A DNA stretch of 64,000 nucleotides from a virus. A model generated the notes under the pieces. The model searched no databases, was not told the DNA's origin, and worked only from the letters and a program-made list of their open reading frames with translations. This document shows, one piece after another, positions 4,839 to 63,053 of this stretch. The translations under genes were made by a program, and so were the position numbers. The DNA is taken from positions 1-64,000 of IMG/VR virus record IMGVR_UViG_3300009703_002976. The stretch is one strand, 5' to 3'. Each line of letters begins with the position of its first letter. Position 1 is the first letter of the stretch.

Positions 4839-5158
4839 ATAATAATCAACATAATTTACCTGAAGAATTTGAAGATTTGGTTTATTGTATAGGATGGCAT
4901 GAACATAAAAAATGGGCAGAAGTTGAAATAGCATCTGATTTTTCTGTATATCCTTGTTGTGCTTTACATGCAGAGCATCAATTAAATAAAAGATTCTTAG
5001 ATAAAAAATTAGATAGTTTTGATAAGGAATGGAATAATTTAAAGAAACATAAATTGAAAGATATCTTAAAAATATGGAGAGAACATATTAAACCAGAATT
5101 TTGGAAAAAAGAAAAAACATTACCCGAATGCTGTAAAACATTATGCAAGATAAAATAA
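4799..5158 (+). CDS. Detached SPASM-like iron-sulfur domain, copy b
   Basis: A 119-residue second stand-alone cysteine domain. YCIGWHEHKKWAEVEI leads into DFSVYPCCALHAEH, and the protein ends LPECCKTLCKIK; the PCC and terminal Cys groups align with copy a and with the C-termini of intact SPASM-type radical SAM genes nearby. The helix before the end (LKDILKIWREHIKPEFWKK) matches the SIKDILSGEWYKKTLE segment of the 36379 protein. So the order here is core, core, SPASM, SPASM, suggesting one detached domain per core. It overlaps copy a by 40 bases and the next gene by 16. Confidence 0.75.
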   Translation: MSSSLYENLPKKINNNQHNLPEEFEDLVYCIGWHEHKKWAEVEIASDFSVYPCCALHAEHQLNKRFLDKKLDSFDKEWNNLKKHKLKDILKIWREHIKPEFWKKEKTLPECCKTLCKIK

Positions 5159-32004: not shown

Positions 32005-33435
32005 ATGATTGATAAAGATCCTGAAAATCTCCCCTCATCTACTTTTTGTGCATTACCGTGGATGCACATTTCTACTCGCCCCAATGGACATATGCGTGTA
32101 TGTTGTACTGCAAATGCATCCGCAGTACAAGATAAAGATTCAACAAATAAAACAATTTCAGAAGCAGGTGTTCTTAGGAGAGATGATGGAAAGCCTGCCA
32201 ATTTAGCAACAACAAGTTTACTAGATGCATGGAATAATGAATATATGAAATCCGTGCGAAAGATGATGCTTAGAGGTGAACGTCCTGCATCTTGTCTAAA
32301 ATGTTTTAAGGAGGAAGATGCTGGACATAGATCAAAACGACAATGGGAAACAGCAAAATGGGTTAACGAAATTGGACTTGAAGAAATTATTGATGAAACC
32401 ACAGTTGAAGGAGCCGTTCCACCTAAAGTACGGTATATTGATCTTCGGCTTGGTAGTAAGTGTCAGCTTGCATGTGTTATGTGTAGTCCTCATGATTCAT
32501 CTAAGTGGGTAAAAGAGTATAAAGAAATATATCCAGAAATAAAAAATCCTAGATTAAAAGATTCGCAATTATGGGAAAAGGAATCTGGAAAATTAGCTTG
32601 GTCTGGTGGATCATATGCTTGGCATAAATCAAATCCCAATTTCTGGGAAGAATTTTATACTCAAGTGCCAACTCTTAAACAATTATATTGGGCTGGCGGT
32701 GAATCATTAATTATGAAAGAACATTATGAAGTTCTTGAAAAAATTATTGAGATGGGTTATGCTAAAGATATTGAAGTTAGATATAATTCGAATGGACTTG
32801 AATGGGATTCTAATTTGTTTGATCTTTGGAAAGAATATAAGAATGTTATTTTTCATTTTAGTGTAGATTCATATAAAGAAAAAAATCATTTCATTAGATA
32901 TCCTTCTCGTTGGAAAAGAATTGTAAAACAAATGCATGTGTTAGATGATTATCCTCATGGTAATCTTAGATTGACAACAGCAACTACAATTACTGCTCTC
33001 AATATTTTTTATCTTCCAGAATTTATAAGTTGGAAATTAGAAGAAGATTGGAAATTACTTAATAAATTTCCTGCTGGTGCTGGTATGATTGATTTGCATC
33101 TTGCATATTGGCCCCCCCAATTAAATTGTAAGGTATTACCTAAATGGTTTAAACGAGATGTAACTGATAAATTCGAAGAGTTTTATCCATGGCTTGAAGA
33201 GAATTGGAAAAAATGTAATGGAGTTGAGGTCGAAAATATCGACTTCAAAGAGTGGAGAGAATTGCCGTATGGTATAAAAAGACTTGAGGGCCTTGTGTCT
33301 TTTATGAACTCTGAAGATTGGTCTGAAAGATTGCCCGAAACTGCTGAATGGTGTTTTACTATTGCAAAGACAAGAAACTTAGATTTTATAAAAATATTTC
33401 CTGATTTAGAATGGCTGGAGTGGTATGCAAATTGA
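32005..33435 (+). CDS. Twitch-domain radical SAM protein
   Basis: A 476-residue protein of a type known in cyanophages. The N-terminal domain has FCALPWMHISTRPNGHMRVCC and ASCLKCFKEEDAGHRSKRQ, an auxiliary cluster module; the core carries LGSKCQLACVMCSPHDS (CxxxCxxC near residue 150), YWAGGESLIMKE (GGEP-like, with Ser for Pro) and RYNSNGLEWD. A long C-terminal extension ends in a Glu/Trp-rich region. Its base composition is slightly richer in GC than most neighbours near its start. It opens a run of nine radical SAM genes. Substrate unknown. Confidence 0.9.
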   Translation: MIDKDPENLPSSTFCALPWMHISTRPNGHMRVCCTANASAVQDKDSTNKTISEAGVLRRDDGKPANLATTSLLDAWNNEYMKSVRKMMLRGERPASCLKCFKEEDAGHRSKRQWETAKWVNEIGLEEIIDETTVEGAVPPKVRYIDLRLGSKCQLACVMCSPHDSSKWVKEYKEIYPEIKNPRLKDSQLWEKESGKLAWSGGSYAWHKSNPNFWEEFYTQVPTLKQLYWAGGESLIMKEHYEVLEKIIEMGYAKDIEVRYNSNGLEWDSNLFDLWKEYKNVIFHFSVDSYKEKNHFIRYPSRWKRIVKQMHVLDDYPHGNLRLTTATTITALNIFYLPEFISWKLEEDWKLLNKFPAGAGMIDLHLAYWPPQLNCKVLPKWFKRDVTDKFEEFYPWLEENWKKCNGVEVENIDFKEWRELPYGIKRLEGLVSFMNSEDWSERLPETAEWCFTIAKTRNLDFIKIFPDLEWLEWYAN

Positions 33436-34177
33436 AATTCCCAAAACAATACGTAGATTGAAACAAAAATTCATTGAAGAACTTTATTCAAAATATGAGG
33501 GCGAAGATGTTTGGAAAAATCTAAGACATTATAAAGACAAATGTTATGAAGAAAAGTTTGTAAATACTATAGGTATTTGGATGTCGGGTGGAGCAGATAG
33601 TTCAATGTTAGCATATTTACTTGCTAAAAAAATTAAAGAAGAAAATTTAAATATAAAAATTCAACCTTTGTCTGTTAGAAGAGGAAGACCTAATAATCCA
33701 ATATATGCTGGAAATGTTATAGATTGGATTGAAGAAGAATTAAATATTAAAATGAATGATCATATCATATATTTTCCAGATATTACAGATAAGCATCAAC
33801 GAGAAATAAAAGAATTTTGGGATAGAGATGATGAAAATTTTAGAAATGATTTATTTCAAATTCTTTATTCTGGAATAACGTGTAATCCTCCTGTTAATGA
33901 TAAAACTATTCCTTTAAATAAAGAACGTAGTAGAGATGAAAATGCGGATAGACCTTTAATATCAGAAAATGGAATTCGTTATTATTTAAATCCTTTTTTT
34001 GATATAAACAAAAAACAATTAGCAGAATTATATAAAGAAAATAATTTATTAAATACTCTTTTTTCTCAAACTTATAGTTGTGAGGGAGAGGCCGAAGACA
34101 CTAAAACACATACTCAGCATTGTGAAAAATGTTGGTGGTGTCAAGAAAGATTTTGGGCGTTTGGAAGATATGTATAA
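33425..34177 (+). CDS. QueC-like PP-loop ATPase
   Basis: A 250-residue protein with IGIWMSGGADSSMLAYLLAK, the SGGxDSS PP-loop of N-type ATP pyrophosphatases, and a C-terminal SCEGEAEDTKTHTQHCEKC followed by WWCQERFWAFGRYV, which matches the zinc-binding C...C-x-x-C-x-x-C and RxxAF tail of QueC. QueC converts 7-carboxy-7-deazaguanine to the nitrile by adenylation. An extra 60-residue insert in the middle and the absence of QueD, QueE or folE homologues nearby argue against ordinary deazaguanine synthesis; activation of another carboxylate or amide is more likely. It overlaps a radical SAM gene on each side. Confidence 0.82.
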   Translation: MQIEIPKTIRRLKQKFIEELYSKYEGEDVWKNLRHYKDKCYEEKFVNTIGIWMSGGADSSMLAYLLAKKIKEENLNIKIQPLSVRRGRPNNPIYAGNVIDWIEEELNIKMNDHIIYFPDITDKHQREIKEFWDRDDENFRNDLFQILYSGITCNPPVNDKTIPLNKERSRDENADRPLISENGIRYYLNPFFDINKKQLAELYKENNLLNTLFSQTYSCEGEAEDTKTHTQHCEKCWWCQERFWAFGRYV

Positions 34178-35306
34178 TATTGAAGATCAATCAAATCGAT
34201 ATCAAATAATATGGGATCTTGGAAGAAGATGTTCATATGCATGTTCCTATTGTCCGCCTCATAGAAATAATAAAACATCCTCGTTTGTAAATTATAAAAC
34301 ATTATGTAAGTCTATGGATAATGTTGCAGAATATGCGTTGCTTTATGATACATTTAGAAAAAAACCTGCTAAGAAAAAATTGAGCTTTACTGGTGGTGAA
34401 CCAACAGTACACCCTGATTTTTTTAGATTTTTAAAATATGTAAAAAAAGAATATCCTGATTTTAGTCGAGGATTGACAACTAATGGATGGTTTGGTAATA
34501 ATATTTTAGATAAAGTTTTATCATTGACTACGGGAGGAACATTATCTTATCATTGTGAAGCAACAAAGAAACAAAAACAACAAGTAATATCAAATGCAAT
34601 ATATTTAAGACAAAAATATAAAGTTAATGTGATGTTTCATAAAGATTATTTTGAAGAATGTATAGATGTATGTGAACAATTAGAAAAAAATAGTGTAGAT
34701 TATGTACCAAGAATTATAGGAGATGATAATCCTAACGATAAAAAGTCTATAATATTGGGTTATACACATAAGTATAATAAAGATCAAATGAAATGGTTTC
34801 GTAACTATTGGAAACAAAGGGGACAAAATGTCTCAGAAAAAGGAAACACTCAAAAAGGACTGGGAAGACCGTGTTGTGGAGGAAGATGTTTCAAGGCAGA
34901 CGGTGTGGATACTTATTTTTTGCCTGACACTAATTTTTTGGGGTGGAATTGCATGGTTAATTGGTACTTTCTTTTTTTAAATTCTGAATTAGATGCAGTT
35001 TATACACATCAAACTTGTGGAGTTAATTTAAATGGTGAAGTTGCTCCTTTAGGAAAAATATCAGAGTTTGATAAAATCATAGATGACTTAGCAGATAATA
35101 TGTATCAAAAAAAGGTACCTATGATTACTTGCCCAAAAACTTTTTGTGGATGCGGTATGTGCATTACAAAATCTAAAGACTCTATAGATGAAATGTTTAA
35201 TCGACACGTAATTGATGAGTTAAATTATGAAAAAGTATCTCAAAAAACAAGTGATTGGAATACAGATTTAACAGTTAAAAAATTATTTGAAAATAATGTG
35301 TTATGA
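34170..35306 (+). CDS. Radical SAM protein with Cys-rich C-terminal domain
   Basis: Start set at ATG 34170 (MYNIEDQSNRYQIIWDLG); the frame is open further upstream within the PP-loop gene. RRCSYACSYCPPHRN gives CxxxCxxC, SFTGGEPTVHPDFFRF the GGEP motif, TTNGWFGNN the third strand. The C-terminal part holds GRPCCGGRCFKADG, GWNCMVNW, THQTCGVNL and TCPKTFCGCGMCITKS, enough Cys for two further clusters. It shares this layout with 39618 (LGRFCNYRCSYCWPY), and both overlap or neighbour different enzymes. Substrate unknown. Confidence 0.88.
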   Translation: MYNIEDQSNRYQIIWDLGRRCSYACSYCPPHRNNKTSSFVNYKTLCKSMDNVAEYALLYDTFRKKPAKKKLSFTGGEPTVHPDFFRFLKYVKKEYPDFSRGLTTNGWFGNNILDKVLSLTTGGTLSYHCEATKKQKQQVISNAIYLRQKYKVNVMFHKDYFEECIDVCEQLEKNSVDYVPRIIGDDNPNDKKSIILGYTHKYNKDQMKWFRNYWKQRGQNVSEKGNTQKGLGRPCCGGRCFKADGVDTYFLPDTNFLGWNCMVNWYFLFLNSELDAVYTHQTCGVNLNGEVAPLGKISEFDKIIDDLADNMYQKKVPMITCPKTFCGCGMCITKSKDSIDEMFNRHVIDELNYEKVSQKTSDWNTDLTVKKLFENNVL

Positions 35307-36391
35307 AACATTTTTGCATGGCTCCCTTTGTACACATTCAAAGAAATTCTTTTGGTGAATTTAATCCTTGTTGTATGTTTAGTGATAGAATTTATTCTGA
35401 ATATAATTCTATATACGAAGCATTCAATAGTGGAGAGAATAATAATCTTAGACAAAGAATGTTAAATGATGAAAAAATAGAAGGATGTAATAAATGTTAT
35501 AGAGATGAGTCTTTGGGAAAACACAGTTATAGACAACGTTTTAATGAAAGATATAAACAAGAATATATTGATAATCCAAAAATAAAAGAATTAGAATTAG
35601 CATTAAGTAATAAATGTAATTATAAATGTGTAGACTGTAATACGAAATTTAGTTCTTCTTGGTATGAAGATGATCTGTTATTAGAAAGAACTCACTATAC
35701 TTTTAAAGGACGAGATGTAAAAAATACAATTCATGAAGAAGATTTTAAAATCATGGATTTGAATGAAATAAAAATTTTAGGGGGCGAGCCATTTTTAGAT
35801 AAAAGATATATTGATGTTTTTAAAAAAATAGATGCTGAAAATATTAAGTTGTTTCTTGTTACAAATAATTCTGTTTTCCCTAATAAAGAATGGATAGAAC
35901 AATTAAAAAGATTTAAACATATTAATTTTAATATTAGTATTGATGGTGTTCATGAAGTTGCAGAATTTGTAAGATATGGAACTAAATTTATAAAATTTGA
36001 AAAAAATTATAAAAAATGGTTGGATTTAAATTTTCATAATATAGACATAATTCCTCATTTTGTTTTTCATTCTTTAAATGTTTTAAACTTTGATCAGACG
36101 ATAGATTGGTTAATTGATGTTTATGATTCAGATATAGAAACAATATTAAATTATATTTCCTATGATTTTTTATCAATGCCTGAAATGTTAAATTGTTCAT
36201 TTTTAACGGATGAATGTAAAAATATGATTGTTGATAATAGTGTTTATTTTAAAAATGAATTAGAAAATTTTCTTGAAAGCAATTCATATAATTCGACATA
36301 TATTGATGAATTGAAAAAATTTGTTTCTTTTTTGAATTTAAGAAGTGAAATACCCAATCAATCTTTTCAAGTTATATCATGTTTAAAATAA
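35303..36391 (+). CDS. Twitch-domain radical SAM protein
   Basis: A 362-residue protein: MKHFCMAPFVHIQRNSFGE with NPCCMFSD and GCNKCYRDESLGKHSYRQR form the N-terminal cysteine module, SNKCNYKCVDCNTKFSS the core CxxxCxxC, ILGGEPFLDKR the GGEP, VTNNSVFPNKE and NISIDGVHEVAEF the later strands. Very similar in plan to 19383. ATG overlaps the previous stop by 4 bases. Confidence 0.9.
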   Translation: MKHFCMAPFVHIQRNSFGEFNPCCMFSDRIYSEYNSIYEAFNSGENNNLRQRMLNDEKIEGCNKCYRDESLGKHSYRQRFNERYKQEYIDNPKIKELELALSNKCNYKCVDCNTKFSSSWYEDDLLLERTHYTFKGRDVKNTIHEEDFKIMDLNEIKILGGEPFLDKRYIDVFKKIDAENIKLFLVTNNSVFPNKEWIEQLKRFKHINFNISIDGVHEVAEFVRYGTKFIKFEKNYKKWLDLNFHNIDIIPHFVFHSLNVLNFDQTIDWLIDVYDSDIETILNYISYDFLSMPEMLNCSFLTDECKNMIVDNSVYFKNELENFLESNSYNSTYIDELKKFVSFLNLRSEIPNQSFQVISCLK

Positions 36392-37365
36392 ATGTTATAG
36401 AAATAGAATTGTCATCTCTTTGTAACGCAAAATGTTCTGCATGTATGCGTACTATATTAGATGAACGTGGAAAATATTATTTAAAAGATAATTTGCCTTT
36501 GAATGAAATTGAATCGTGGTTTAATGACATAGATTTATCAAATACTAAAATAAAAATGTGTGGAGTATTGGGTGATCCAATGATTAATCCGGAATTGCAT
36601 GATATTGTTTTTTATTTTTTATATGAAAAACATGTAAGAGATATTGAAATGTCTACGAATGGTGGTACTCGTACACTTGATTTCTGGAAAGAATTGGGTA
36701 TGTTATCAAAAAATTCGAATAAAAGATTTTATGTTCATTGGGCTATTGATGGAGTTACAAAAAATGACTATAGAGAAAACGTTGTACTCGATAGAGTATG
36801 GAATAATATTAATGCTTACCATTCTACTGGCGGCCATAGTATCTGGCAGTATATCATTTTTGATTATAATGAAGACGAAGTTGAAATGGCCAGAGAAAAA
36901 GCAAAAGAAAATGGAATGAAATTTGCAACTCGTAAAAGTTGGAGAAATAATTCAGATTTTGCTAAAGTTAAATCTAGGGCCGCTAAAGAAATTGATGCTG
37001 AAAAGTATGAAGAAGTTGAAAAACGAGCATATGAGAAATCATATGAAGATGCAAAAATTGTATGTAGACATAAAGTAAAAGGAGAAATATACATTGGTGC
37101 AAATAGAAGATTGTGGCCTTGTTGTCATTTATATGATGAAGATGTTGCTCAAAAAAATAATTCTATGAAACATTTATTTGAGTCTGTGGGACACAATTTT
37201 AATGATTTAAATAAACATAGTATAAAAGATATTTTATCTGGTGAGTGGTATAAAAAGACTTTAGAAGATAGTTGGAATAAATTTCATCCTATGCATTTGC
37301 CTAGATGTTATTTGACATGTGGAGATGAAGGAAAACGAGCGGTTATTAAAAATGTGGAAAACTAA
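36379..37365 (+). CDS. Radical SAM/SPASM protein
   Basis: A 328-residue protein: LSSLCNAKCSACMRTILDE (CxxxCxxC), KMCGVLGDPMINPELHD (GGEP-like), STNGGTRTLDFW and WAIDGVTKNDYR in the core, then CRHKVKGEIYIGANRRLWPCC, SIKDILSGEWYKKTLE and LPRCYLTCGDEG as an attached SPASM domain. It is the intact template against which the split genes at 3197-5158 can be read. Tandem with the next gene, which is a paralogue. Confidence 0.9.
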   Translation: MFKINVIEIELSSLCNAKCSACMRTILDERGKYYLKDNLPLNEIESWFNDIDLSNTKIKMCGVLGDPMINPELHDIVFYFLYEKHVRDIEMSTNGGTRTLDFWKELGMLSKNSNKRFYVHWAIDGVTKNDYRENVVLDRVWNNINAYHSTGGHSIWQYIIFDYNEDEVEMAREKAKENGMKFATRKSWRNNSDFAKVKSRAAKEIDAEKYEEVEKRAYEKSYEDAKIVCRHKVKGEIYIGANRRLWPCCHLYDEDVAQKNNSMKHLFESVGHNFNDLNKHSIKDILSGEWYKKTLEDSWNKFHPMHLPRCYLTCGDEGKRAVIKNVEN

Positions 37366-38281
37366 AACAGTAGAATGGATCGATGTTGAATTAACATCAT
37401 TTTGTAATATAGCATGTCCTGGTTGTTTGAGACAAGAAAAAAGAAAACAAGTAGATCATATTTTAGATAAAGATATGATACAATTTTCTGATTTGCAAAA
37501 ATGGATCAGAAAAGAAGATTTCCCTAATTTAAAATTGCTTAATTTTTGTGGATCTGTAGATGAGCCCACAACACATCCTGAATTATTAGATATAGTAGAA
37601 TATTTTTTAACATTTACAGAGATAAATATTGCATCCAATGGATCGACTAAGACAAAAGATTTTTGGAAAAAATTAGGAGAATATGGTGTATCTGTATTTT
37701 TTGGTATTGATGGTATAGATCAGAAATCGTTAGAGAAATATAGAATAGGTTCTAGTTTTAAAAAAATACAGGAAAATTATAGAGCATTTATTAAAGCGGG
37801 GGGTAATGCTACTTGGCAATTTATAGTATTTGAACATAATGAACATCTTTTGGAAGATGCAAAAGCTCTTTCAGAAAAAGAAGGATTTACAAATTTTAGA
37901 ACAATATTTTCTCATAGAAAAGGAAGTGGAGAGATTGAAAAAAAGACAGTTGAAGAACAAGAGATATATTGTAAGTATGGACATCAAAAAAGACTTTTTA
38001 TAAATCATACAGGAGCTTTGATACCATGTTGTTATTTAAACTCTGAAGCACTTGAATTACATGCTAATGAAACTATTAAAACTAAATTTGGGACAAAATA
38101 TATGGAATTAGATGGAGTGTTATCAAATAATCTTAAATATAATACAGTATCGGAAGTATTGAATGGAGAATTATTTAAATATATTATTGAATCTTGGAAT
38201 GATGATCCAGTTGAAAAGTGTTGGCAAACATGTAAACAGAAAAAAAGAGATATTTTTATAGATGAGAAAGTAACATGCTGA
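37352..38281 (+). CDS. Radical SAM/SPASM protein
   Basis: Start at ATG 37352 (MWKTKTVEWIDVELTSFCN), inside the end of the previous gene. The 309 residues contain CNIACPGCLRQEKR (CxxxCxxC), NFCGSVDEPTTHPE (GGEP-like, with a Ser-Val insertion), ASNGSTKTKDFW and FGIDGIDQKSLEKYR, then GALIPCCYLNSE, TVSEVLNGELFKYI and CWQTCKQKK as SPASM. Paralogue of 36379 and probably derived from it by an old duplication. Confidence 0.9.
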   Translation: MWKTKTVEWIDVELTSFCNIACPGCLRQEKRKQVDHILDKDMIQFSDLQKWIRKEDFPNLKLLNFCGSVDEPTTHPELLDIVEYFLTFTEINIASNGSTKTKDFWKKLGEYGVSVFFGIDGIDQKSLEKYRIGSSFKKIQENYRAFIKAGGNATWQFIVFEHNEHLLEDAKALSEKEGFTNFRTIFSHRKGSGEIEKKTVEEQEIYCKYGHQKRLFINHTGALIPCCYLNSEALELHANETIKTKFGTKYMELDGVLSNNLKYNTVSEVLNGELFKYIIESWNDDPVEKCWQTCKQKKRDIFIDEKVTC

Positions 38282-39621
38282 CTTGTTTTTACGCCCTTGG
38301 TGGAATTAATTATAAAAATGGAGTTATAACAACTTGTCCAAGACAAGCAAATCAATTAGTATTTGCTCATGAAACAATATTGCCCTCAGAAATATTTAAT
38401 CATAAAAATTTTAAAGAACTTAGAAAATCATTATATCAAAATAAATGGCCTAGTGGATGTGATACATGTGAGAATATGGAACAGGTAGGAGCAAAGTCTA
38501 TGAGAAAAGATTATGTTTTAAATTCTGATAATTTTTTTCATAAGCCACAAAAAGACGATTATTCGGACGGAGATCCACAAAAAAATAAATTAAAAGATGA
38601 AAAAACAGAAATAAGATTATATGATTGTTATAATCCTATAACACATGAAGTAAACACAAAAGGATTGCGACATGTTGAGTTTAGATTTAGTACGGCTTGT
38701 AATTTTTCTTGTTTACATTGTTCAAAAGTTTATTCCTCGGGATGGACTAAAAAATTACGTAATTATGAACCCGATCAAGAAGTTATACTAAATGATTTAA
38801 GACAATTGTTAGGAACAGAACATAGACATGGCCCAAATGATAGAAATGAAATGTCTTTATCTATTGAAGAATCTTTAAAAATTGTAGAAGACCTGAATGA
38901 AAATTTTCCATTATTACAATATGTGGATTTTGCAGGAGGAGAATTACTATATCAAAAGCAATTTTTTCCCACATTGAAAAAATTAGCAGATCATCCTAAT
39001 GCAAAAAATATAAAAATATCTTTTCATACAAATTTTAATGCTGATTTTGATGTTGCACTTTTGTCTAAACATCTGGAATGTTTTGGCTCTTCAGCAATAA
39101 TAATATCTGTTGATGCGGGTAAAACATTTTATTCTTATTTTAGAAATGGGGGTGAATGGGACAAATTGAAAAATAATATTCAAGAATTTAAAAAAATAAA
39201 TGATTTTACTTGGGTTGATATGAGTTGTACAACTTCAATTTATCAAATGTTGGATATATATGATGTTTTTGATTCGTTTTATGATTTGAATTTAAACTTT
39301 GATGCATCTATAGTTCAAACTCCACAATATTTGGATCCGTCATTAATACTTTATGATTTTTATGATGAGACTATGAAAGATATTGAAAAAACATATGAGT
39401 TAATTGAAAAAAGACAAAAAAATCCTGAAGGAAAAAGTGATTATTCAAAATATTGGTTTAATTATATTGTGGATTATGTAAAGCAAACGAAAATAAGTTA
39501 TAATAATTTTAATAGATTTTTAATATATCGAAAAAAATCAGATGAGATTTGGAATCAAGATTTTAATGATTATTTTGAAAATTATCAAATCGAAAATAAT
39601 GAATTAGTGAGAGTTAAGTGA
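38275..39621 (+). CDS. Twitch-domain radical SAM protein
   Basis: A 448-residue protein: LTCFYALGGINYKNG with TTCPRQANQL and GCDTCENMEQVGAKSMRKD make the N-terminal module, STACNFSCLHCSKVYSS the core motif, DFAGGELLYQKQFF the GGEP variant (Leu for Pro), and HTNFNADFD and ISVDAGKTFYSYFRN later strands. A 90-residue segment between module and core is unique among its neighbours. Substrate unknown. The next gene starts with GTG in the TGA overlap. Confidence 0.9.
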   Translation: MLTCFYALGGINYKNGVITTCPRQANQLVFAHETILPSEIFNHKNFKELRKSLYQNKWPSGCDTCENMEQVGAKSMRKDYVLNSDNFFHKPQKDDYSDGDPQKNKLKDEKTEIRLYDCYNPITHEVNTKGLRHVEFRFSTACNFSCLHCSKVYSSGWTKKLRNYEPDQEVILNDLRQLLGTEHRHGPNDRNEMSLSIEESLKIVEDLNENFPLLQYVDFAGGELLYQKQFFPTLKKLADHPNAKNIKISFHTNFNADFDVALLSKHLECFGSSAIIISVDAGKTFYSYFRNGGEWDKLKNNIQEFKKINDFTWVDMSCTTSIYQMLDIYDVFDSFYDLNLNFDASIVQTPQYLDPSLILYDFYDETMKDIEKTYELIEKRQKNPEGKSDYSKYWFNYIVDYVKQTKISYNNFNRFLIYRKKSDEIWNQDFNDYFENYQIENNELVRVK

Positions 39622-40685
39622 AATTAAGTGAATATGATTTTACCAAGATACCTTGGAATAAAATTGAACGAGTTGGGACTTGGAAGATGCTGGAGTCTGA
39701 CTTATTTACAGTTTCATGGTTGTTAGGGAGATTTTGTAATTATAGATGTTCATATTGCTGGCCATATGCAAGAAGTAATACTAAAGATCATCGTCCTGTG
39801 AAATTATGTCTCAATACAATTGATGAAATTAAACGACAGGCCAGAGAAAGAAATTTTAATTCCTTTCATTTTAGTCTATCTGGAGGTGAGCCCACTTTTC
39901 ATCCAGCATATCTTGATATACTTGAACATCTTGCAGATGATGTAGTATACACTAATTATTCATCTGTCCATATGACTTCAAATTGTTCTCGACCTATGAA
40001 GTGGTTTGAACGATATGTTGAGTCAGCAAAGAAATTTTCAAGAGCATCTATTACTGCATCATTTCATCGTGAATATATTACAAAAAATAAACTTAATGAT
40101 TTTGCAGATAAACTTGATTTTTGTCAACGTAATGGTGTAAGAGTAACAATTAATTCTGTAATGGTACCAGAAAAATTTGATGAAATATATAAAGACTTAT
40201 TGTATTTTTATGAACGAGGCATAAACGTAACACTTAAACCACAAAGTGATCCTACTGCATCATTTGTTGTTGATGGATATTCTGAAGAACAGATGCAAGT
40301 ATTGCATAATGGTATGCCTCAGATTACAAACATGGAAGTTAAATCAAAAAAACTTCAAAACATTCGTCAAGAATTTGAAATTGTTATGAATGATGATGAA
40401 GGAAAAGAGTGGTATCTTGATCAAGCAGAAAGATTTAATGCATTTAATTTTAATAATTTTAAAGGATGGACTTGCTCTACTGGTTATCGTAGTTGCATTA
40501 TTCGTGAACCTGATGGAAGCATTAAACGATCTTATTCTTGTGGAGATGCTCCTTTAGGAAATATAGAAACAGGATTTAAATTATTTGATTCGCCTGTGAT
40601 ATGTACTACAAATGCGTGTGTAAGTTCTGCTGATAGTAAAATTCCTAAAAAGAAATCTAATTGTACCTTACCATTATGGAAATAG
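39618..40685 (+). CDS. Radical SAM protein, 34170-type
   Basis: A 355-residue protein with GTG as start in a GTGA overlap. LLGRFCNYRCSYCWPYARS (CxxxCxxC), SLSGGEPTFHPAYLDIL (GGEP), HMTSNCSRPMKW in the core, and a C-terminal region WTCSTGYRSCIIREPDGS, RSYSCGDAPLGN and VICTTNACVSS with five Cys. Its closest relative here is the gene at 34170, which follows the PP-loop protein. Base composition is slightly less AT-rich than the flanking genes. Confidence 0.9.
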   Translation: MKLSEYDFTKIPWNKIERVGTWKMLESDLFTVSWLLGRFCNYRCSYCWPYARSNTKDHRPVKLCLNTIDEIKRQARERNFNSFHFSLSGGEPTFHPAYLDILEHLADDVVYTNYSSVHMTSNCSRPMKWFERYVESAKKFSRASITASFHREYITKNKLNDFADKLDFCQRNGVRVTINSVMVPEKFDEIYKDLLYFYERGINVTLKPQSDPTASFVVDGYSEEQMQVLHNGMPQITNMEVKSKKLQNIRQEFEIVMNDDEGKEWYLDQAERFNAFNFNNFKGWTCSTGYRSCIIREPDGSIKRSYSCGDAPLGNIETGFKLFDSPVICTTNACVSSADSKIPKKKSNCTLPLWK

Positions 40686-40885
40686 ATAATATTATAAATG
40701 ATTATTCTTTGAGAGAATTACAAATTATTTCTTCAAGAATATTATCAGAACATGAAGCTACAAATAATTTTATAAAACAATTTAAAGCAGATCATGATAG
40801 TCATCAATTTTATAAAAACGTTATTAAATGGTATATTGAAAAATATAAACATTTTCCTGAATTGAAAAAATATGATTCCTTCTAA
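40676..40885 (+). CDS. Small uncharacterised helical protein
   Basis: Start at ATG 40676 (MEIDNIINDYSLRELQIISS), inside the previous gene's last codons; 69 residues. It is predicted to be mostly helical, with Leu, Glu and Lys heptad-like spacing and a His/Tyr-rich end (KYKHFPELKKYDSF). No Cys, no leader-type Gly-Gly, no known domain. It overlaps two radical SAM genes, so it is a candidate partner or substrate, but no recognised precursor motif is present. Confidence 0.55.
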   Translation: MEIDNIINDYSLRELQIISSRILSEHEATNNFIKQFKADHDSHQFYKNVIKWYIEKYKHFPELKKYDSF

Positions 40886-42401
40886 AGATAATACTTTTTG
40901 TTTTTATCCTTTTTATGCCATGGTTTTTAAACTATGGAAAAAGAATAGTAATGAATTAAGAGCAGTTGCACCATGTTGTATGATGCATGACACTAAAGAT
41001 ATAACAGGAATTAAAATAGATGTTTCATATACTGCTACAAATCCTGTGGTTATTACAAGTATAAATCATGAATTAATTGATGATGATAAAATAGAAATTT
41101 ATGAAGTAAATGGAGATGGAGTTGATGTGGGGCCATATACAGTAACAGTACTTTCTTCAGATACATTTTCTATTCCTGAAGATGCTACAAAGGGCAATGT
41201 TGGTAAATTGAATTATCATATGAGAGAACCGAATTCAATTTTAACTAGAAGAGATTTAAAAGGATTGTCTCCTCATGATATTTTTCATCATAAAAAATTT
41301 GAAGAATTAAGAAAAAACTTACTTAATAATGTGCGGGATTCTCGTTGTTCCACATGTTGGAATCAGGAAGATTTGGGAATAATGTCTCATAGAATGTATA
41401 CACGATGGCAATTTCCAGAAAAATTTAAAACAAGTTTAAAAGAAATAGACATATCAATATCTAATAAGTGTAATTTAGCATGTAGAATGTGTAATACAGG
41501 ATCTTCACATCAACTAAATGAAGATGTGAATAAATTAAGAAAAAATAATAAATTGCTTTTATTTGAAGAAGTTTCAGATAATGGTTTAGGATCACTTAAT
41601 TTACCATTGGATGTTAAAAATAATCATTTAATACAATGGATATATCACAATACTGATAAAATAAAAATTTTAAAAGCATCTGGAGGAGAGCCACTATATG
41701 ATAGAAATATATTAAATTTGTTAAGAAAATATGTGAAAGATGGTAATAGTAAATCAACAGAATTACAATTCCATACAAATGCAATGTTAATAACAGATAA
41801 AATTATTAAACTCATGGACGAATTTAAATTACAAAGACATTCATTTAGTATAGATGGAGTTGATAAGACTTATAATTACATAAGACATAAAGCAAATTTT
41901 TCGATTTTAGAAAAAAATATTAAAAATTGGTTTAACAAATCTAATAACATTTATGCAGTAAATATTAATTTAGTATTGTCTGCGTTAAATATAGGTAATG
42001 TTGTTGAGTTTTTGGAATGGACAGCTTTGATGTTTCATGATAAGATTAGATGTAATGTTTTTATTTCTGAAGTGCGGCCTCATGGTAGAGGACTCGATAT
42101 TGCAAATTTACCAATCTCTTATTTAGAAAAAATACGAAAAGATATTATAGAATATAGAGATGGTTTTGAAACATTTAGAACTAAAATATATAATTATATG
42201 CATAAAGGAAATTTTTTCCATTATGAAATTGATAAATTATTATCGTTAATTGATCATGCAATAACAAATAATGTATGTGATATTTTTCGTTTATATACTG
42301 AAATAACATTATTAGATGAAACAAGAAATCAAAGTTATAAAAATTTTTTAGATTCTTCTTTAGTTTCTATTTTAGAAAACTATGAATCGCAAGAAAAATA
42401 A
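40872..42401 (+). CDS. Twitch-domain radical SAM protein with inserted FCCH-like beta domain
   Basis: A 509-residue protein. Residues 1-45 are the N-terminal cysteine module (FCFYPFYAMVFKLWKKN, VAPCCMMHD), completed by SRCSTCWNQEDLGIMSHR about residue 156. Between them, residues 50-105 form an insertion: SYTATNPVVITSINHELIDD followed by a D-K-I-E-I-Y strand and GPYTVTVLSSDTFSI. That pattern, V-I-T-x-x-x-H-x-L...G-x-Y-T-V-x-V-x-S-x-x-T-F-S-I, matches small beta repeats common in phage tail proteins. The core has SNKCNLACRMCNTGSS (CxxxCxxC) and KASGGEPLYDRN (GGEP). The insertion is unusual for an enzyme of this class. Confidence 0.88.
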   Translation: MIPSKDNTFCFYPFYAMVFKLWKKNSNELRAVAPCCMMHDTKDITGIKIDVSYTATNPVVITSINHELIDDDKIEIYEVNGDGVDVGPYTVTVLSSDTFSIPEDATKGNVGKLNYHMREPNSILTRRDLKGLSPHDIFHHKKFEELRKNLLNNVRDSRCSTCWNQEDLGIMSHRMYTRWQFPEKFKTSLKEIDISISNKCNLACRMCNTGSSHQLNEDVNKLRKNNKLLLFEEVSDNGLGSLNLPLDVKNNHLIQWIYHNTDKIKILKASGGEPLYDRNILNLLRKYVKDGNSKSTELQFHTNAMLITDKIIKLMDEFKLQRHSFSIDGVDKTYNYIRHKANFSILEKNIKNWFNKSNNIYAVNINLVLSALNIGNVVEFLEWTALMFHDKIRCNVFISEVRPHGRGLDIANLPISYLEKIRKDIIEYRDGFETFRTKIYNYMHKGNFFHYEIDKLLSLIDHAITNNVCDIFRLYTEITLLDETRNQSYKNFLDSSLVSILENYESQEK

Positions 42402-43161
42402 TCTTAGATTTGTATTTCCAGTAAATCAACCTGGACTTGGTGATAGATTTATCATGACTTCAAATATTCTTTATGCTAGAAAAGAAGTTGAGCATGAATG
42501 TTGTATTATTGATATTTTTCTTAAAAATATCAAGCCAAGTAAGAATTATGAGTTTGATCAAAAACAATATTTAAATCTTACAGATTTTTATGATATTATA
42601 GATTTTTTTCATTTTAAAAGACCAGATAAAAGTGAACCATTAATAATTTCAAATATAATAGATGAAGAACCTCCTCCATTTCATGCCAGCACAGGTCACC
42701 GTAATATTGAGTATGAAATAACAAATAATGAATATAAGAGAAGCCACAATTTTCTTTATAATCGAGAACAATATTGGCCTATAAATTATGATAAAACTAT
42801 AAAAAAAGATATTATAACATTTATGTTTTATGTAGATGATTCATTACCCGAACATAAATTTATTACAGTAGAGGAAGAAAAAGAATTTCAATTATTAAAA
42901 ACGAATTTATCATCATTTAATTTTCATCGTTTAGAAGATTTTAATTTTAAAAAAAATGTAGAATTATTATCTAGAAGTAAGTTATTAATATCATCAGAAG
43001 GAATGTGGACACATCTTTCAAGAGCAATGGATATTGATACTATTACGATTTCAAGAGATTCTAAGTTTATTAAAGAATTTACTCGACAAGGTTATTTTTG
43101 TTCTGGAATTCAAGAATGTTTAAATGAATTAGAAAAAAGATGTCATGAATCACAGGTCTAG
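42382..43161 (+). CDS. GT9-like glycosyltransferase fragment, tandem copy a
   Basis: A 259-residue protein. FPVNQPGLGDRFIMTSNILY resembles the opening GxGDxxxxxP loop of heptosyltransferase-type GT-B enzymes, and LLISSEGMWTHLSRAMDIDTI their nucleotide-sugar-binding G-S-x-x-x-H-L-A region. The middle (FYDIIDFFHFKRPD) is characteristic only of this pair. A protein of 259 residues is shorter than a full GT9 (about 350). It precedes an almost identical-start paralogue. Confidence 0.5.
   Translation: MNRKKNNLRFVFPVNQPGLGDRFIMTSNILYARKEVEHECCIIDIFLKNIKPSKNYEFDQKQYLNLTDFYDIIDFFHFKRPDKSEPLIISNIIDEEPPPFHASTGHRNIEYEITNNEYKRSHNFLYNREQYWPINYDKTIKKDIITFMFYVDDSLPEHKFITVEEEKEFQLLKTNLSSFNFHRLEDFNFKKNVELLSRSKLLISSEGMWTHLSRAMDIDTITISRDSKFIKEFTRQGYFCSGIQECLNELEKRCHESQV
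42400..42472 (+). repeat. Tandem-duplication repeat, copy a
   Basis: The 73 bases from AATCTTAGATTTG to the start of the ATTCTT run are the same as those at 43193-43265 except for three substitutions that I can see, and in frame. The two genes diverge further on. It marks a gene duplication with recently conserved or converted 5' ends. Confidence 0.85.
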
Positions 43162-44014
43162 TTATTGGGAAACAGGTTATTTTAAAAAAAAGAATCTTAG
43201 ATTTGTATTTCCAGTAAATCAACCTGGACTGGGTGATAGATTTATCATGGCCTCAAATATTCTTTTTACTATGAAAGAAGTTGAACACGAATCTTGTATT
43301 GTTGATATTTTTCTTAAAAACACAAAGACGGTGCATAAAAGCCAGTATTTAAATCTTATAGATTTTTATGATATTATAGATTTTTTTCATTTTAAAAGAC
43401 CAGATGAAAGTGAATCATCAATAATTACAAATATAATAGATGAAGCTCCTCCTACATATAAAGAGATATTGGCTTCAAAACGAAAAAATATTACAGGTGA
43501 TGTTGCTTGTCATGATTTTAATTCTAGATATAATGAATATGTTATAAGTAATTATTTTCTTTATAACGAAGCACGATATTGGCCTATAAATTATGATAAA
43601 ACTGCAAAAAAGCAACTTATAACATTTATGTTTTATGTAGATGATTCAGTACCCGAACATAAATTTATCACAACAGAGGAAGAAAAAGAATTTAATAAGG
43701 TAAAAGATTATTATGGACATTATTTTCATCGACATGAATATTATTTTGTTCGTTTAGAAGATTTTAATTATAAAAGAAATATAGAATTATTATCTAAAAG
43801 TTTGTTTTTAATAGCATCAGAAGGAATGTGGACCCATTTATCTAGAGCAATGAAAGTTAATACCATAGCATATTCTAGGGATATTACTTTTATTGAGGAA
43901 TTTAATAAACAGGGACATTTTTGTTCTGGATTTTTTGAAAAATGTTTAATTGAATTAGAAAAAAAATGTATAGAATTAAAAAAGAAGAGCAACTTTATAA
44001 GTTTGAAGAGATAA
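43145..44014 (+). CDS. GT9-like glycosyltransferase fragment, tandem copy b
   Basis: A 289-residue paralogue of the previous gene, with a longer start (MNHRSSYWETGYFKKKNLRF), the same FPVNQPGLGDRFIMASN loop and SLFLIASEGMWTHLSRAMKV block, and an extra 30-residue loop in the middle. It overlaps the next radical SAM gene by 49 bases. Probable sugar transferase or sugar-binding domain, donor unknown. Confidence 0.5.
   Translation: MNHRSSYWETGYFKKKNLRFVFPVNQPGLGDRFIMASNILFTMKEVEHESCIVDIFLKNTKTVHKSQYLNLIDFYDIIDFFHFKRPDESESSIITNIIDEAPPTYKEILASKRKNITGDVACHDFNSRYNEYVISNYFLYNEARYWPINYDKTAKKQLITFMFYVDDSVPEHKFITTEEEKEFNKVKDYYGHYFHRHEYYFVRLEDFNYKRNIELLSKSLFLIASEGMWTHLSRAMKVNTIAYSRDITFIEEFNKQGHFCSGFFEKCLIELEKKCIELKKKSNFISLKR
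43193..43265 (+). repeat. Tandem-duplication repeat, copy b
   Basis: Second copy of the near-identical 73-base segment described at 42400-42472; direct orientation, in the same reading frame of the paralogous gene. Confidence 0.85.
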
Positions 44015-45033
44015 AACATATACATTTTGAACCTACGCAAAGATGTCAGGCGGCGTGTCCTATGTGTGATAGAACTAATAATCCACATATAAAAAATGCT
44101 GAACTTTCTATAGAACAATTTAAACAAATTGTAAATGCTAATTTAGCAAAACAATTAAATAGTTTTCTTATGTGTGGTAATCATGGAGATCCTATGATTG
44201 CAAAGGATACCCTTGAAATGTTTGACTGGTTACGCTATAATAATAATGAACTATATCTTCATATGACTACAAATGCTGGAGGACGATCTGATGATTGGTG
44301 GAAAAGACTTGCGGAAATTTTTGGTGATTATGGAAAAGTATCTTTTTCAGTAGATGGTTTAGAAGACACAAATCATTTATATCGAGTAAATGTAGATTGG
44401 AATCGTGTTGAAAATTCAATGGATGTTTTTACTCAAGCAGGAGGAAAAGGTTATTGGGTATTTTTAATATTTGAACATAATGAACATCAAGTAGAAGAAG
44501 CAGAACGAATGGCTAAATTATTTGGACTTGAATTTGTGAGAAAAAAGTCTGGAAGATGGGTGCAAAGTTATAAAAATAAGAAAATTGACAAAAAGATAAC
44601 CACTAAGGGGAATGAGATTAAGCCACCAGCTAATCCAGAGAATCAGAATAAGAGTGTTAACAGTTATGATAAATTGATTAAAAGTCATGGTTCCTTTCAA
44701 GAGTATTTAGATAAAACAAAAATAAAATGTAAGTCAATAGATACTAAAGAAATTTTTATTTCAGCAGAAGGTCTTGTGACTCCTTGTTGTTGGACTGCTG
44801 GAAAATTATATAAAGTATATGAAAAAATAGGACAAAATCAAATATGGTCTTATATAGATGATATTAAAAATATTAATGCTTTATATAAACCTTTAAATGA
44901 AATTATTGAAGGAGATTTTTTTAAAAAGATTAAACAATCTTGGAATTTGCCTTCTTGTTCACAAGGAAAATCAAAAGTTTGTGCAGAGAAGTGTGGTACT
45001 GATTTTAACGCATTTGCAGATCAATGGAAATAA
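43966..45033 (+). CDS. Radical SAM/SPASM protein
   Basis: A 355-residue protein: TQRCQAACPMCDRTNNPH (CxxxCxxC), LMCGNHGDPMIAKD (GGEP-like), TTNAGGRSDDWW and FSVDGLEDTNHLYRVN in the core, and a SPASM-like end with IKCKSIDTKEIFISAEGLVT, PCCWTAGKL, and SCSQGKSKVCAEKCGTD. A basic Lys/Asn-rich linker of about 50 residues (KNKKIDKKITTKGNEIK) separates the two. Closest in core motifs to the split genes at 3197 and 3883. Last radical SAM gene in the window. Confidence 0.9.
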   Translation: MYRIKKEEQLYKFEEIKHIHFEPTQRCQAACPMCDRTNNPHIKNAELSIEQFKQIVNANLAKQLNSFLMCGNHGDPMIAKDTLEMFDWLRYNNNELYLHMTTNAGGRSDDWWKRLAEIFGDYGKVSFSVDGLEDTNHLYRVNVDWNRVENSMDVFTQAGGKGYWVFLIFEHNEHQVEEAERMAKLFGLEFVRKKSGRWVQSYKNKKIDKKITTKGNEIKPPANPENQNKSVNSYDKLIKSHGSFQEYLDKTKIKCKSIDTKEIFISAEGLVTPCCWTAGKLYKVYEKIGQNQIWSYIDDIKNINALYKPLNEIIEGDFFKKIKQSWNLPSCSQGKSKVCAEKCGTDFNAFADQWK

Positions 45034-45746
45034 AAATTAATTGTCTTAAATGGGGAACAAAATATGATTCTTCATATGTTAATAGAACATATGGTGGGTT
45101 ATTAAAACATTGTAATGAATCATTTCATTTCGTTTGTTATACTGATAATCCTAAGGGAATATCTTCTAAAATTGAAACAAAAGATATTGAAGAACTTAGA
45201 CCATATAATACAAATATGATGTTTACATATGAAAAATTAATGCTGATAGACAAAGACGAATATGATAAGAATCTCTGGATAGATTTAGATGTATTAGTAC
45301 ATGAAAATGTAACTGAATTAATAACAAGAAAGCATAATAATATTACATTTATATGGAATTATTGGAATGATTATGAAAAAATAAGTTTATTTAATTTTGG
45401 TAGGGGAGTTTCTTGTCATGTAAATTCTTCATTTGTTGCATGGGATAAGGGAACAGCTTCTTGGCTTTTAAAATATACTAAAGAAAATTGGAAAAAAATA
45501 GAATGGACATATAAAAGTCTTGATAAGTATTTGTTTTATCAACATTACAGAAATAATAAAATTAATTTATGGGAAGATGGATTTTTTTCAAATTATAATA
45601 AAGAAAATTATAAATTAAAAAATAAAGTAACATTATTTAATACATCACATCTTTATAACAATAAAAATATGAAAGAAATTAAACATTACGAATTAGATGA
45701 ATCACCAGTACAGGAATTATGGAAAAGTTATTCTCTTGGGTTGTAA
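45024..45746 (+). CDS. GT-A glycosyltransferase-like protein
   Basis: A 240-residue protein beginning MEIKINCLKWGTKYDSSYVN. LWIDLDVLVHENV is a D-x-D metal motif in the usual strand, MFTYEKLMLIDKDE the acceptor helix before it, and CHVNSSFVAWDKGTASWLL a helix after it. LFNTSHLYNN may carry the C-terminal His. The pattern fits small GT8/GT-32-like phage glycosyltransferases. Donor and acceptor unknown. Confidence 0.65.
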   Translation: MEIKINCLKWGTKYDSSYVNRTYGGLLKHCNESFHFVCYTDNPKGISSKIETKDIEELRPYNTNMMFTYEKLMLIDKDEYDKNLWIDLDVLVHENVTELITRKHNNITFIWNYWNDYEKISLFNFGRGVSCHVNSSFVAWDKGTASWLLKYTKENWKKIEWTYKSLDKYLFYQHYRNNKINLWEDGFFSNYNKENYKLKNKVTLFNTSHLYNNKNMKEIKHYELDESPVQELWKSYSLGL

Positions 45747-46138
45747 ATCATGAAAAAATTTCTGTATTATGTTGTCCAAGTTTTAAATTTATTAAAACAT
45801 TAAAAGGACTGGATATGGAGATTGATAATATAAATTATGATATTAATTTTAGAGATATGCCAAATGTGATTTGTAAAGATTTTGTATTTGATAATGTTAA
45901 ATTATATAATTGTGTATTGCATTATAATTGTGAGAAAACATATCCTGTGGGACGAATGCATGAAGGAATTTTTATATTAAGGGGTGATGATAAAGAACAT
46001 AATGGTGATTGTAATCCTATTCATTCGATTGATAAATTAATAGATGATAATGAATTGACAGAAGTTTTTGATTCATTTGAAATACAAAGTAAAAATAAAA
46101 AATACAAACATTATTGTGTATATGGAACAAATCTATAA
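45719..46138 (+). CDS. Short protein related to the following methyltransferase-like gene
   Basis: A 139-residue protein. Its C-terminal half (CKDFVFDNVKLYNCVLHYNC, EKTYPV, CNPIHSIDKLIDDNELTEVF) aligns by eye with FKDFFERKEM, LIINTSSEHM and INCVKEVDELIEKNQIKNVL in the next gene. The N-terminal half (VLCCPSFKFIKTLKGLDMEI) is too short for a complete SAM-binding Rossmann motif. It is either a truncated paralogue or a regulatory subunit; the former looks likelier. Confidence 0.45.
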   Translation: MEKLFSWVVNHEKISVLCCPSFKFIKTLKGLDMEIDNINYDINFRDMPNVICKDFVFDNVKLYNCVLHYNCEKTYPVGRMHEGIFILRGDDKEHNGDCNPIHSIDKLIDDNELTEVFDSFEIQSKNKKYKHYCVYGTNL

Positions 46139-46892
46139 TTGGAGAAAAAATAAAAACGATATAAGTTTGCACAATATTGAAATAGGTTCTTATAATGAAA
46201 AGATTGGAGAACTTAAAGAAGAAATAGGTTCTATTAGAGAGACTATTGGAGAACATAGAGAACAAATTTCTATATGTGAAAATGATAATAGAGAAACACC
46301 ATATTATTGGGTCAATCAATGGGTTAATAATAATTTGCCTTCATATTCTAATAGTTTTGAAGACTCTGTATCTCAAGGACAATATGAATCTAAATTATGG
46401 TTAAATGAAAAATTAGAAAAATTTATTTCTATGCCAGAACTTCATATTGATATTATCGGTTCTTGGTTTGGATTTCCTTTAATAGAAATGTTAGCAAATG
46501 CGTTTGATATAAAACAAATAGATTTATATGATATTGATGAGGATTGTCATAAAGTAACTGCTCAATATATAAATCATTTTGATTGTGATTTTAAAATAGT
46601 GCAATTTAAAGATTTTTTTGAACGTAAAGAAATGAGAAGAAGACATTTAATTATTAATACATCATCTGAACATATGTCTGATATAGTTCTTATGAAAGAA
46701 TATTATAAAGATTATCCAGTAAAACCTATTTTAGCAATACAATCAAATAATTATTTTGATGTTGAAGATCATATAAATTGTGTAAAAGAGGTTGATGAAT
46801 TAATAGAAAAAAATCAAATTAAAAATGTTTTGTATAAAGGAAAACGTTCTTTGCCATTATATGATAGATTTATGGTGATAGGTAAATGGTAG
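46122..46892 (+). CDS. Methyltransferase-like protein with N-terminal coiled-coil repeat
   Basis: Start at ATG 46122 (MEQIYNWRKNKNDISLHN), inside the previous stop region. Residues 20-55 contain seven-residue repeats (EKIGELKEEIGSIRETIGEH), likely a short coiled coil. The following Rossmann-like part has HIDIIGSWFGFPLIEMLAN and IKQIDLYDIDEDCHKVTAQY, resembling a SAM-methyltransferase motif I with altered Gly positions (D-I-I-G-S-W-F-G) and a motif II Asp. INTSSEHMSDI and DHINCVKEVDELI complete it. Probably a methyltransferase of the phage glycan pathway. Confidence 0.58.
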   Translation: MEQIYNWRKNKNDISLHNIEIGSYNEKIGELKEEIGSIRETIGEHREQISICENDNRETPYYWVNQWVNNNLPSYSNSFEDSVSQGQYESKLWLNEKLEKFISMPELHIDIIGSWFGFPLIEMLANAFDIKQIDLYDIDEDCHKVTAQYINHFDCDFKIVQFKDFFERKEMRRRHLIINTSSEHMSDIVLMKEYYKDYPVKPILAIQSNNYFDVEDHINCVKEVDELIEKNQIKNVLYKGKRSLPLYDRFMVIGKW

Positions 46893-63028: not shown

Positions 63029-63053
63029 TATATCTCCATTTTTTAATTATTTT

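Follow-up and report, generated by a model that had tools for sequence, protein, structure and literature searches.

Genes for radical S-adenosylmethionine (rSAM) enzymes have been reported from viruses before. They are listed among viral auxiliary genes (PMC9301287, PMC7150976), and one survey counts 261 viral matches to ahbD, whose function it calls speculative (PMC9301287). Closest to the present subject are the T4-like environmental virus TARA_ERS488813_N000010, whose 183 kb include 12 rSAM genes, described there as coding for Fe-S proteins (PMC5332604), and the pelagimyophages, whose host recognition cluster contains rSAM cassettes and for which modification of the O-chain by phage glycosyltransferases has been proposed (PMC7029224). 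Here we describe a stretch of 64,000 bases, hereafter the window, that comprises bases 1–64000 of the 87,167-base IMG/VR virus record IMGVR_UViG_3300009703_002976. Nine of its rSAM genes, R1 to R9, lie at 32005–45033 (Table 1), and three of these, R1, R7 and R9, recur together in other phages and in bacteria.

The TARA virus resembles the window in being T4-like and rich in rSAM genes, but the accessible account of it names no gene order, core, slot or bacterial counterpart. The pelagimyophage cluster likewise combines rSAM cassettes with glycosyltransferases in a hypervariable island, but the cassettes are mentioned in passing, and the accessible text has no conserved trio. Pelagibacter phage Mosig EXVC030M (MT647606) carries three genes annotated as coding for molybdenum cofactor enzymes, one of which is the match to R9, together with a nitroreductase, a hydroxylase, an aminotransferase and a carbamoyltransferase; the R9 match, however, is 27% identical over half of the query. 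At 62425–63391 there, the matching gene encodes 211 residues and is followed by a small open reading frame (ORF). Across 50,697 GenBank phage records, from which near relatives of the window may have been left out, R1 has three and R9 four weak matches, and R7 has none at E 1e-5. The original prediction, drawn from the sequence of the window, did not recognise the gene set from any described phage. This is too broad as far as rSAM-rich T4-like phages are concerned, since such phages are in print (PMC5332604, PMC7029224), and holds up better for the genes themselves, R7 being unmatched and R1 and R9 only weakly matched. No description of the conserved trio, or of the variable slot described below, was found in the open full-text literature, a body that does not include subscription papers or outside preprints. 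As far as these searches go, what is already known comprises the enzyme families and phage islands rich in rSAM genes; an organised trio with a bacterial form is not described.

All nine genes are on the + strand, overlap or are tightly packed, and enclose a PP-loop gene (33425). Profile searches of each protein, which the original prediction had proposed as a check, bear out its count: all nine reach the PF04055 gathering score of 29.5 (lowest 36379, at 30.1), and each is an open frame with one CxxxCxxC and a GGEP- or GxxGDP-type motif, in the forms AGGES in 32005 and AGGEL in 38275. The three architectures that it distinguished stand in part. The N-terminal twitch (N_Twi_rSAM) family NF033640, with a cut-off of 170 bits, takes in R1, R3, R6 and R8 as well as the upstream gene 19383, R2, R4, R5, R7 and R9 falling below that cut-off; the entry shows no assigned reaction and is silent on the cluster. 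R2 and R7 end in a different Cys-rich segment, which is conserved in alignments. A C-terminal SPASM domain (PF13186, gathering score 21.5) is matched in three proteins and exceeds the gathering score in 37352 (25.3), as against 17.6 in 36379 and 18.3 in 43966. The predicted QueC-like PP-loop protein and 69-residue helical protein (sm) are likewise present: the former passes PF06508 (27.2 against a cut-off of 22) and has SGGxDS and a Cys-rich C-terminal site, and the model of the latter is helical. QueC itself (7-cyano-7-deazaguanine synthase) was rejected for 33425, which scores 26.8 with TIGR00364 against an equivalog cut-off of 150.3 bits, and 7-deazaguanine DNA modification was dropped, its partner genes lacking among the scanned proteins, a subset of the window ORFs. 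Five rSAM genes lie upstream (3185, 3883, 9227, 19383 and 24766), giving the predicted total of 14; four pass PF04055, and 3185, at 20.1 against 29.5, keeps its CxxxCxxC. This total is usual for the group, since 20 viral records with R1, R7 or R9 loci have 3–23 PF04055 matches each at E 0.001.

Relatives in IMG/VR were taken from all 40 R1 loci, the best 80 of 108 stretches for R9 and the best 80 of at least 486 for R7, with 10 kb to each side of the seed; removal of near-copies left 124 of 204 viral loci, the window included, and the sm loci were handled apart. Neighbours were counted at identity thresholds of 45% (R1), 52% (R7) and 36% (R9). R1 precedes R7 on the same strand in each of the 46 non-redundant viral loci, window included, that have both. 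Between them lies a slot of 0–11 genes, 0–7 of them rSAM; pooled, the 46 slots hold 282 genes (149 rSAM) in 118 clusters, 48 of which contain rSAM genes. The non-rSAM content, in 84 of 85 listed proteins, includes hydroxylases (5/84), methyltransferases (4/84) and nitroreductases (4/84). Of the 51 loci with both R9 and R1, 42 have R9 first, by 1–8 genes, and the other nine, the window among them, have it after R1. Loci seeded with R9 contain R1 in 16/20 and R7 in 10/20, and those seeded with R1 contain R9 in 9/13 and R7 in 4/13. Because the loci extend 10 kb to each side only, missing partners may sit outside them, and in some loci a partner may be truly absent. To the right of the viral relatives are PHROG families that include clamp loader, HNH endonuclease and thymidylate synthase.

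The variability of the slot is seen in contig L136, in which R1, R2 and a 221-residue fragment of R7 are 91%, 89% and 98% identical to those of the window, while the relatives of R3–R6 are at 42–68%, that of R8 is at 39%, and extra genes are present. To judge by these identities, this looks like gene exchange between conserved ends. Of the 47 PP-loop genes in non-redundant loci, 23 have an R2 relative no more than three genes away and 15 are in a locus without one; the scan with the PP-loop protein itself gave relatives in three loci. The distance matrices of the trio correlate, with r of 0.52–0.70 over 32 loci and 0.64–0.83 over 19 viral loci, values as high being seen in 0 of 2000 permutations, which ignore shared phage ancestry (contig L159 entered this set with the bacterial rows and fell among the viral rows).

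Judged from gene neighbourhoods, R1, R7 and R9 are the core, and the presence of R2–R6, R8 and the PP-loop gene varies. The original prediction had seen an assembly line of modifications on a common substrate, whose conservation as a block would support one system. A fixed nine-gene line is ruled out, because the interior between R1 and R7 varies between phages and diverges in L136, and because only R1, R7 and R9 are conserved together. The idea of one system survives for these three, which travel jointly in phages and bacteria, and for sm with R9, and does not extend to the six remaining rSAM genes or the PP-loop gene.

Gene decay, with several proteins inactive through lost cluster cysteines, had been named as a finding that would speak against the prediction. 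It is ruled out by the unbroken motifs, CxxxCxxC being intact in all nine genes, together with the ratios of nonsynonymous to synonymous substitution (dN/dS), which are 0.10–0.24 against the closest orthologue for the nine rSAM genes and the PP-loop gene; by this measure all ten are under purifying selection. The rSAM cysteines are invariant in the aligned rows of R1 (22), R9 (33), R7 (11) and R2 (11), and the auxiliary cysteines of these four show little or no variation, with one truncated row in the R7 alignment.

Bacterial relatives came from an R1 alignment scan of 84,980 species genomes, which found proteins 47–55% identical in metagenome-assembled genomes (MAGs) titled Bdellovibrionia, Bdellovibrionales, Oligoflexia, Bacteriovoracaceae or Halobacteriovoraceae and, in one case, “bacterium”. 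Further bacterial hosts may be missed, since the scan used two peptide patterns only. Five viral-looking MAG contigs (L136, L137, L138, L142 and L159) are not counted as bacterial; L136, L137, L138 and L159 are island contigs that had been binned with Chloroflexi, Acidimicrobiaceae, Planctomycetota and Gammaproteobacteria MAGs in a public genome collection. The 16 bacterial genomes tested each contain a locus whose R1 reaches at least 47%; L140, a near-copy of L139, was set aside. R7 and R9 relatives are present in all 16, and in 12 the whole trio is clustered within about 10 kb, in varied order and orientation. One of the remaining four has R9 about 20 kb away on the same contig, and three have the genes on separate contigs. 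A bacterial locus has 3–9 rSAM genes, exactly three in 6 of 14; thus, the bacterial form is not always a bare trio. Among 144 genomes of Bdellovibrionota, six of them positives known beforehand, R1 is found in 8, R7 in the same 8 and R9 in 8 (7 shared).

The bacterial contigs that carry the trio reach 936 kb; the GC content of the trio is within about 5 points of its surroundings, and no phage family was seen in the flanks among 25 of 89 families listed. In the R1 tree a single group holds all 12 bacterial rows (support 99/98); in the R7 tree the viral rows group at 97/94 and include L159, which is probably a viral contig. With or without extra rSAM genes, the core of Bdellovibrionota adjoins glycosyltransferases (GTs). 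GT2 domains occur in 9 of 68 flanking proteins, as against at most 1 of 68 controls (random picks from 113 ORFs, “at most” since 25 of 141 families were visible). The 68 were drawn from 104 ORFs, leaving out GT-like, methyltransferase-like and already scanned ORFs and some short or edge ones, and L141:12451–14019, outside the 68, is also GT2. A GT-rich neighbourhood, as expected of a surface-glycan biosynthesis locus, is thus found in the bacterial flanks and, by its GT domains, in the window.

Several companions accompany R9. The counts for sm start from the best 80 of 296 stretches, taken with 8 kb on either side; 36 of these loci are non-redundant, and the 28 that reach 12 kb or more were used. 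In all 28, R9 is no more than 4 kb away from sm and a methyltransferase-like gene (MT) is present, directly before sm in 24, from a 10-base overlap to a 14-base gap; a GT-like partner occurs in 24, R1 in 23 and R7 in 4. The sm model is helical (predicted local distance difference test, pLDDT, 79), with no fold match below E 0.001 in the PDB or BFVD and nothing convincing in a PDB profile search, whose best hit, at E 0.038, is a designed protein. The protein is conserved along its whole length, without a variable core or a leader/core pattern. A full-sensitivity profile search of L136–L187 matched L142 and L159 only, leaving the bacterial trio loci without a match to sm, and a search of the 16 bacterial genomes, run without a positive control, gave none either; its absence from the bacterial loci weakens the case for sm as a universal substrate. 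In L011 and L060, sm is fused to a relative of the 43145 protein. That family, which includes the paralogue 42382, was considered as a glycosyltransferase, 42382 being GT9-like by eye, and rejected, as Pfam, PHROG and PDB profiles give no support; one relative matches a PHROG of unknown function only.

The GT-like partner carries a DGD(N) motif; it is present in 78 of the collected loci and in 12 of the 16 bacterial genomes. One bacterial genome joins an R9-family rSAM protein and the GT-like partner in a single open frame of 654 codons. In genome G009 (L362), a frame of 893 codons joins the GT-like partner to a GT2 domain, whose best match among glycosyltransferases of the PDB is at E 2e-8, and to a C-terminal segment that contains CxxxCxxC.

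With VIA-align, the AlphaFold model of R7 finds BlsE best, at Z 12.5, followed down to 11.5 by viperin, MoaA, ChlB and SkfB, and R7 has weak profile matches to viperin and MoaA. The likeness is one of fold, since R7 is 11–12% identical to BlsE, the viperin of T. virens and MoaA, and 18–20% to four other viperin chains. BlsE acts on a sugar nucleoside; viperin and MoaA act on nucleosides or nucleotides. With enzymes of nucleosides, cofactors and peptides scoring almost alike, the R7 model cannot separate sugar, nucleotide and peptide substrates. Weak PDB profile matches are to SkfB for R1, NifB for R9, viperin and a sulfatase maturase for R7, MoaA, ChlB and YydG for R2, and AsnB and Cap9 for the PP-loop protein. 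Viperin itself was rejected for R2 and R7, which score 38.8 and 44 against the NF038283 cut-off of 180.

The arrangement as core and slot has good support, with the gaps that the loci show; its chemistry is inferred. We propose, at slightly less than an even chance, that the trio is the core of a system in which exchangeable tailoring cassettes act on a surface glycan or a nucleotide sugar, the choice of substrate following from context. The core trio would make a radical-dependent change on a nucleotide sugar or a growing surface glycan, the associated glycosyltransferases would handle the altered sugar, and the slot enzymes would contribute additional modifications that differ from strain to strain. 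In this way the phage would vary a surface glycan, most probably that of the infected cell, in line with the proposal made for the glycosyltransferases of pelagimyophages (PMC7029224). This reading draws on the R9–GT-like and GT-like–GT2 frames, the GT2-rich bacterial flanks, the sugar-type genes of the window (carbamoyltransferase, DegT and class I aminotransferases, cytidylyltransferase), its GT domains (52376 and 55029, with a weak match in 45024), and BlsE as the best match of R7. It is tempting to go further and to see in R9–R1–R7, with the GT-like, methyltransferase-like and 69-residue companions, a radical system common to hundreds of uncultured phage sequences and to Bdellovibrio-like bacteria, which in phages would form a frame for exchangeable cassettes that diversify a surface modification by a logic like that of antigen variation, sm being a phage-specific carrier or adaptor for R9. 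This fuller version is a tentative one, and we would expect it to fail somewhat sooner than to hold.

A number of results weigh against the proposal. The R7 model is weak (pLDDT 68, mostly below 50 at the C-terminus), and BlsE leads viperin, MoaA and the peptide maturases by one Z unit. The Pfam matches of the GT-like partner, at E 0.0026 and 0.0013, are below cut-offs, and its PDB profile search gave nothing below E 0.5; the partner is missing from the window and was not found in 4 of the 16 bacterial genomes. Since the 42382/43145 family has no GT matches, its fusions to sm lend the glycan reading no support. The window itself has R9 after R7, the minority order, and R7-seeded loci of at least 18 kb have R1 in 23/46 and R9 in 13/46 within 10 kb. 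To the known positives among the 144 Bdellovibrionota genomes and the permutations blind to ancestry, given above, must be added the newly found genomes: G055 has R9 on a contig other than that of R1 and R7, G059 has R9 alone, and G111 is without R9, with R7 at a contig end and a weaker R1.

The main rival is peptide or protein modification, in which the rSAM/SPASM enzymes would act on a ribosomal substrate, perhaps sm, in the manner of ribosomally synthesised and post-translationally modified peptides. The constant tie of sm to R9 (28/28 loci) and the maturase matches (SkfB for R1, ChlB and YydG for R2) speak for it, as does the setting of remote R7 relatives (24–25% identity) on one Vibrio and one Photobacterium plasmid, near a small ORF, GT2, HlyD and a peptidase-domain ABC transporter. 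No RRE or PqqD domain, however, was matched by Pfam among the scanned window proteins, small ORFs not being systematically searched, and sm both lacks a variable core and is not found in the bacterial trio loci; we consider this explanation unlikely. The two plasmids, of Vibrio alginolyticus (L278) and Photobacterium damselae (L279), share as annotated an operon-like run of a lysine-acyltransferase, a SelO-type protein, GT2, a small ORF, an rSAM protein, HlyD and the peptidase-domain ABC transporter. The resemblance of R7 and R2 to BlsE, viperin and MoaA would also fit synthesis of a small molecule, a nucleoside-like or aminoglycoside-like compound directed, for example, against competitors or host defence. 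The window has Pfam-supported carbamoyltransferase, DegT and class I aminotransferase, cytidylyltransferase and halogenase genes, and may have amidinotransferase-like genes by reading only. Yet genes of all these kinds are usual in exotic-sugar pathways, the bacterial trios sit among glycosyltransferases, and the scanned proteins, a subset, include none that could be recognised as serving export or resistance; such a product seems distinctly unlikely.

It is also conceivable that the phage decorates its own virion, for instance its tail fibres, instead of the host. The GT9 region at the end of the protein at 55029–58442 weakly matches the TibC type, and TibC is a protein heptosyltransferase; R8 has a domain in common with an Ig-like protein of the same phage, and islands of this kind lie in the host recognition cluster (PMC7029224). 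Nevertheless, the TibC match (E 0.0016) is below cut-off, the R8 insert is seen in this phage only, and the bacterial trio, on long contigs of matching GC content and with no phage family among the flank families listed, is hard to square with a virion function, which we regard as improbable. Finally, unrelated rSAM genes might have piled up at a recombination hot spot without forming a system. The 118 slot clusters, the strong differences between loci and the 23 of 46 R7-seeded loci without R1 nearby would be expected in that case, but the fixed R1–R7 order, the co-occurrence of the trio in bacteria, the fusion and the strong purifying selection make it very improbable for the trio, if possible for single slot genes. 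Among these explanations, the surface-glycan proposal is the one that we prefer.

Table 1. Features of the window, with coordinates in window positions.
Feature	Position	Strand	Description and evidence
R1	32005..33435	+	N-terminal twitch/SPASM and rSAM core; core trio, left slot end; NF033640 397.5 bits, PF04055; 22-row alignment; bacterial relatives
PP-loop ATPase, QueC-like	33425..34177	+	slot gene; PF06508 over cut-off, TIGR00364 far under; weak PDB profile matches AsnB, Cap9
R2	34170..35306	+	rSAM core and Cys-rich C-terminus; slot gene; PF04055; largest R2 cluster in 15/46 slots
R3	35303..36391	+	twitch rSAM; slot gene; NF033640 235.6 bits
R4	36379..37365	+	rSAM and SPASM-like C-terminus; slot gene; PF04055 30.1, SPASM 17.6 below cut-off
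R5	37352..38281	+	rSAM and SPASM; slot gene; PF04055 and PF13186 over cut-off
R6	38275..39621	+	twitch rSAM; slot gene; NF033640 198.8 bits
R7	39618..40685	+	rSAM core and Cys-rich C-terminus; core trio, right slot end; PF04055 58.4 bits; encoded in at least 486 viral stretches
sm, 69-residue helical protein	40676..40885	+	R9 companion; alignment, model
R8	40872..42401	+	twitch rSAM with FCCH-like insert; between sm and 42382; NF033640 208.8 bits
Insert in R8	41004..41219	+	tblastn to L051:11302-11520 (record ~75302-75520); PF16190 weak, 16.1 vs 29.5
42382 protein, paralogue of 43145	42382..43161	+	no Pfam or PHROG match; family profile empty in PDB
43145 protein, same family as 42382	43145..44014	+	adjoins R9; relatives adjoin sm (L057, 35%) or are fused to sm (L011 53%, L060 41%)
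R9	43966..45033	+	rSAM and SPASM-like C-terminus; core trio; PF04055 39.3 bits; alignment
Glycosyltransferase-like, recurs 3′ of R9	45024..45746	+	PHROG 1962 glycosyltransferase E 6e-5; no Pfam match; synteny
MT, methyltransferase-like by motif reading	46068..46892	+	family of 141 ORFs, alignment; no Pfam or PHROG match
Two core-only rSAM genes (3185, 3883), then two SPASM-like-only genes (4533, 4799)	3185..5158	+	4799 SPASM 16.1 below cut-off; 4533 by eye
Upstream rSAM, B12-binding-like N-terminus	9227..11008	+	PF04055 over cut-off; B12-binding 19.5 vs 32.1
Upstream twitch rSAM	19383..20573	+	NF033640 over cut-off
Upstream rSAM and SPASM	24766..25584	+	PF04055 and PF13186 over cut-off

By eye, the record looks like that of a T4-like phage, with a gp59-like gene at 58666, a gp32-like gene at 59288 and baseplate-like genes beyond; one baseplate wedge in the record is weakly backed by Pfam. 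The protein at 55029–58442 (1137 residues) combines GT2, GT4-type and GT9 domains with the TibC-type match, and 46886, 49015 and 49796 are GT-like by eye. A gene of the tryptophan-halogenase family (PF04820, 217 bits) lies in the phage island at 17119–18354. No relatives of 31381–31980 were found by scan.

An insert of about 72 residues splits the N-terminal twitch module of R8. It shares 59% identity with a domain of this phage’s 1313-residue Ig-like protein and has no counterpart in the aligned R8 relatives; on this comparison, the insert looks like a recent domain transfer within one genome. Separation of modules is seen too. rSAM cores and SPASM-like domains are encoded as separate genes at 3185–5158 of the window and also in L018 and L192, a relative of 4799 adjoining one of 3185 in L018, and the C-terminal piece of R2 is a separate gene in six slots. 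The 211-residue R9 match of phage Mosig, with its small ORF behind it, is a further case. The auxiliary cluster may work in trans.

Genes for rSAM enzymes recur in marine-virus surveys (PMC5332604, PMC7150976, PMC9301287, PMC7029224) and are sometimes named molybdenum cofactor or haem enzymes. The core reduces the 3–23 puzzling genes of a viral record to three assayable proteins, which can be obtained from bacterial genomes, and the natural fusion of an R9-family protein with the GT-like partner offers a handle on the class of substrate. The R1–R7 array, in turn, presents 48 rSAM clusters in 46 loci that may share one type of substrate.

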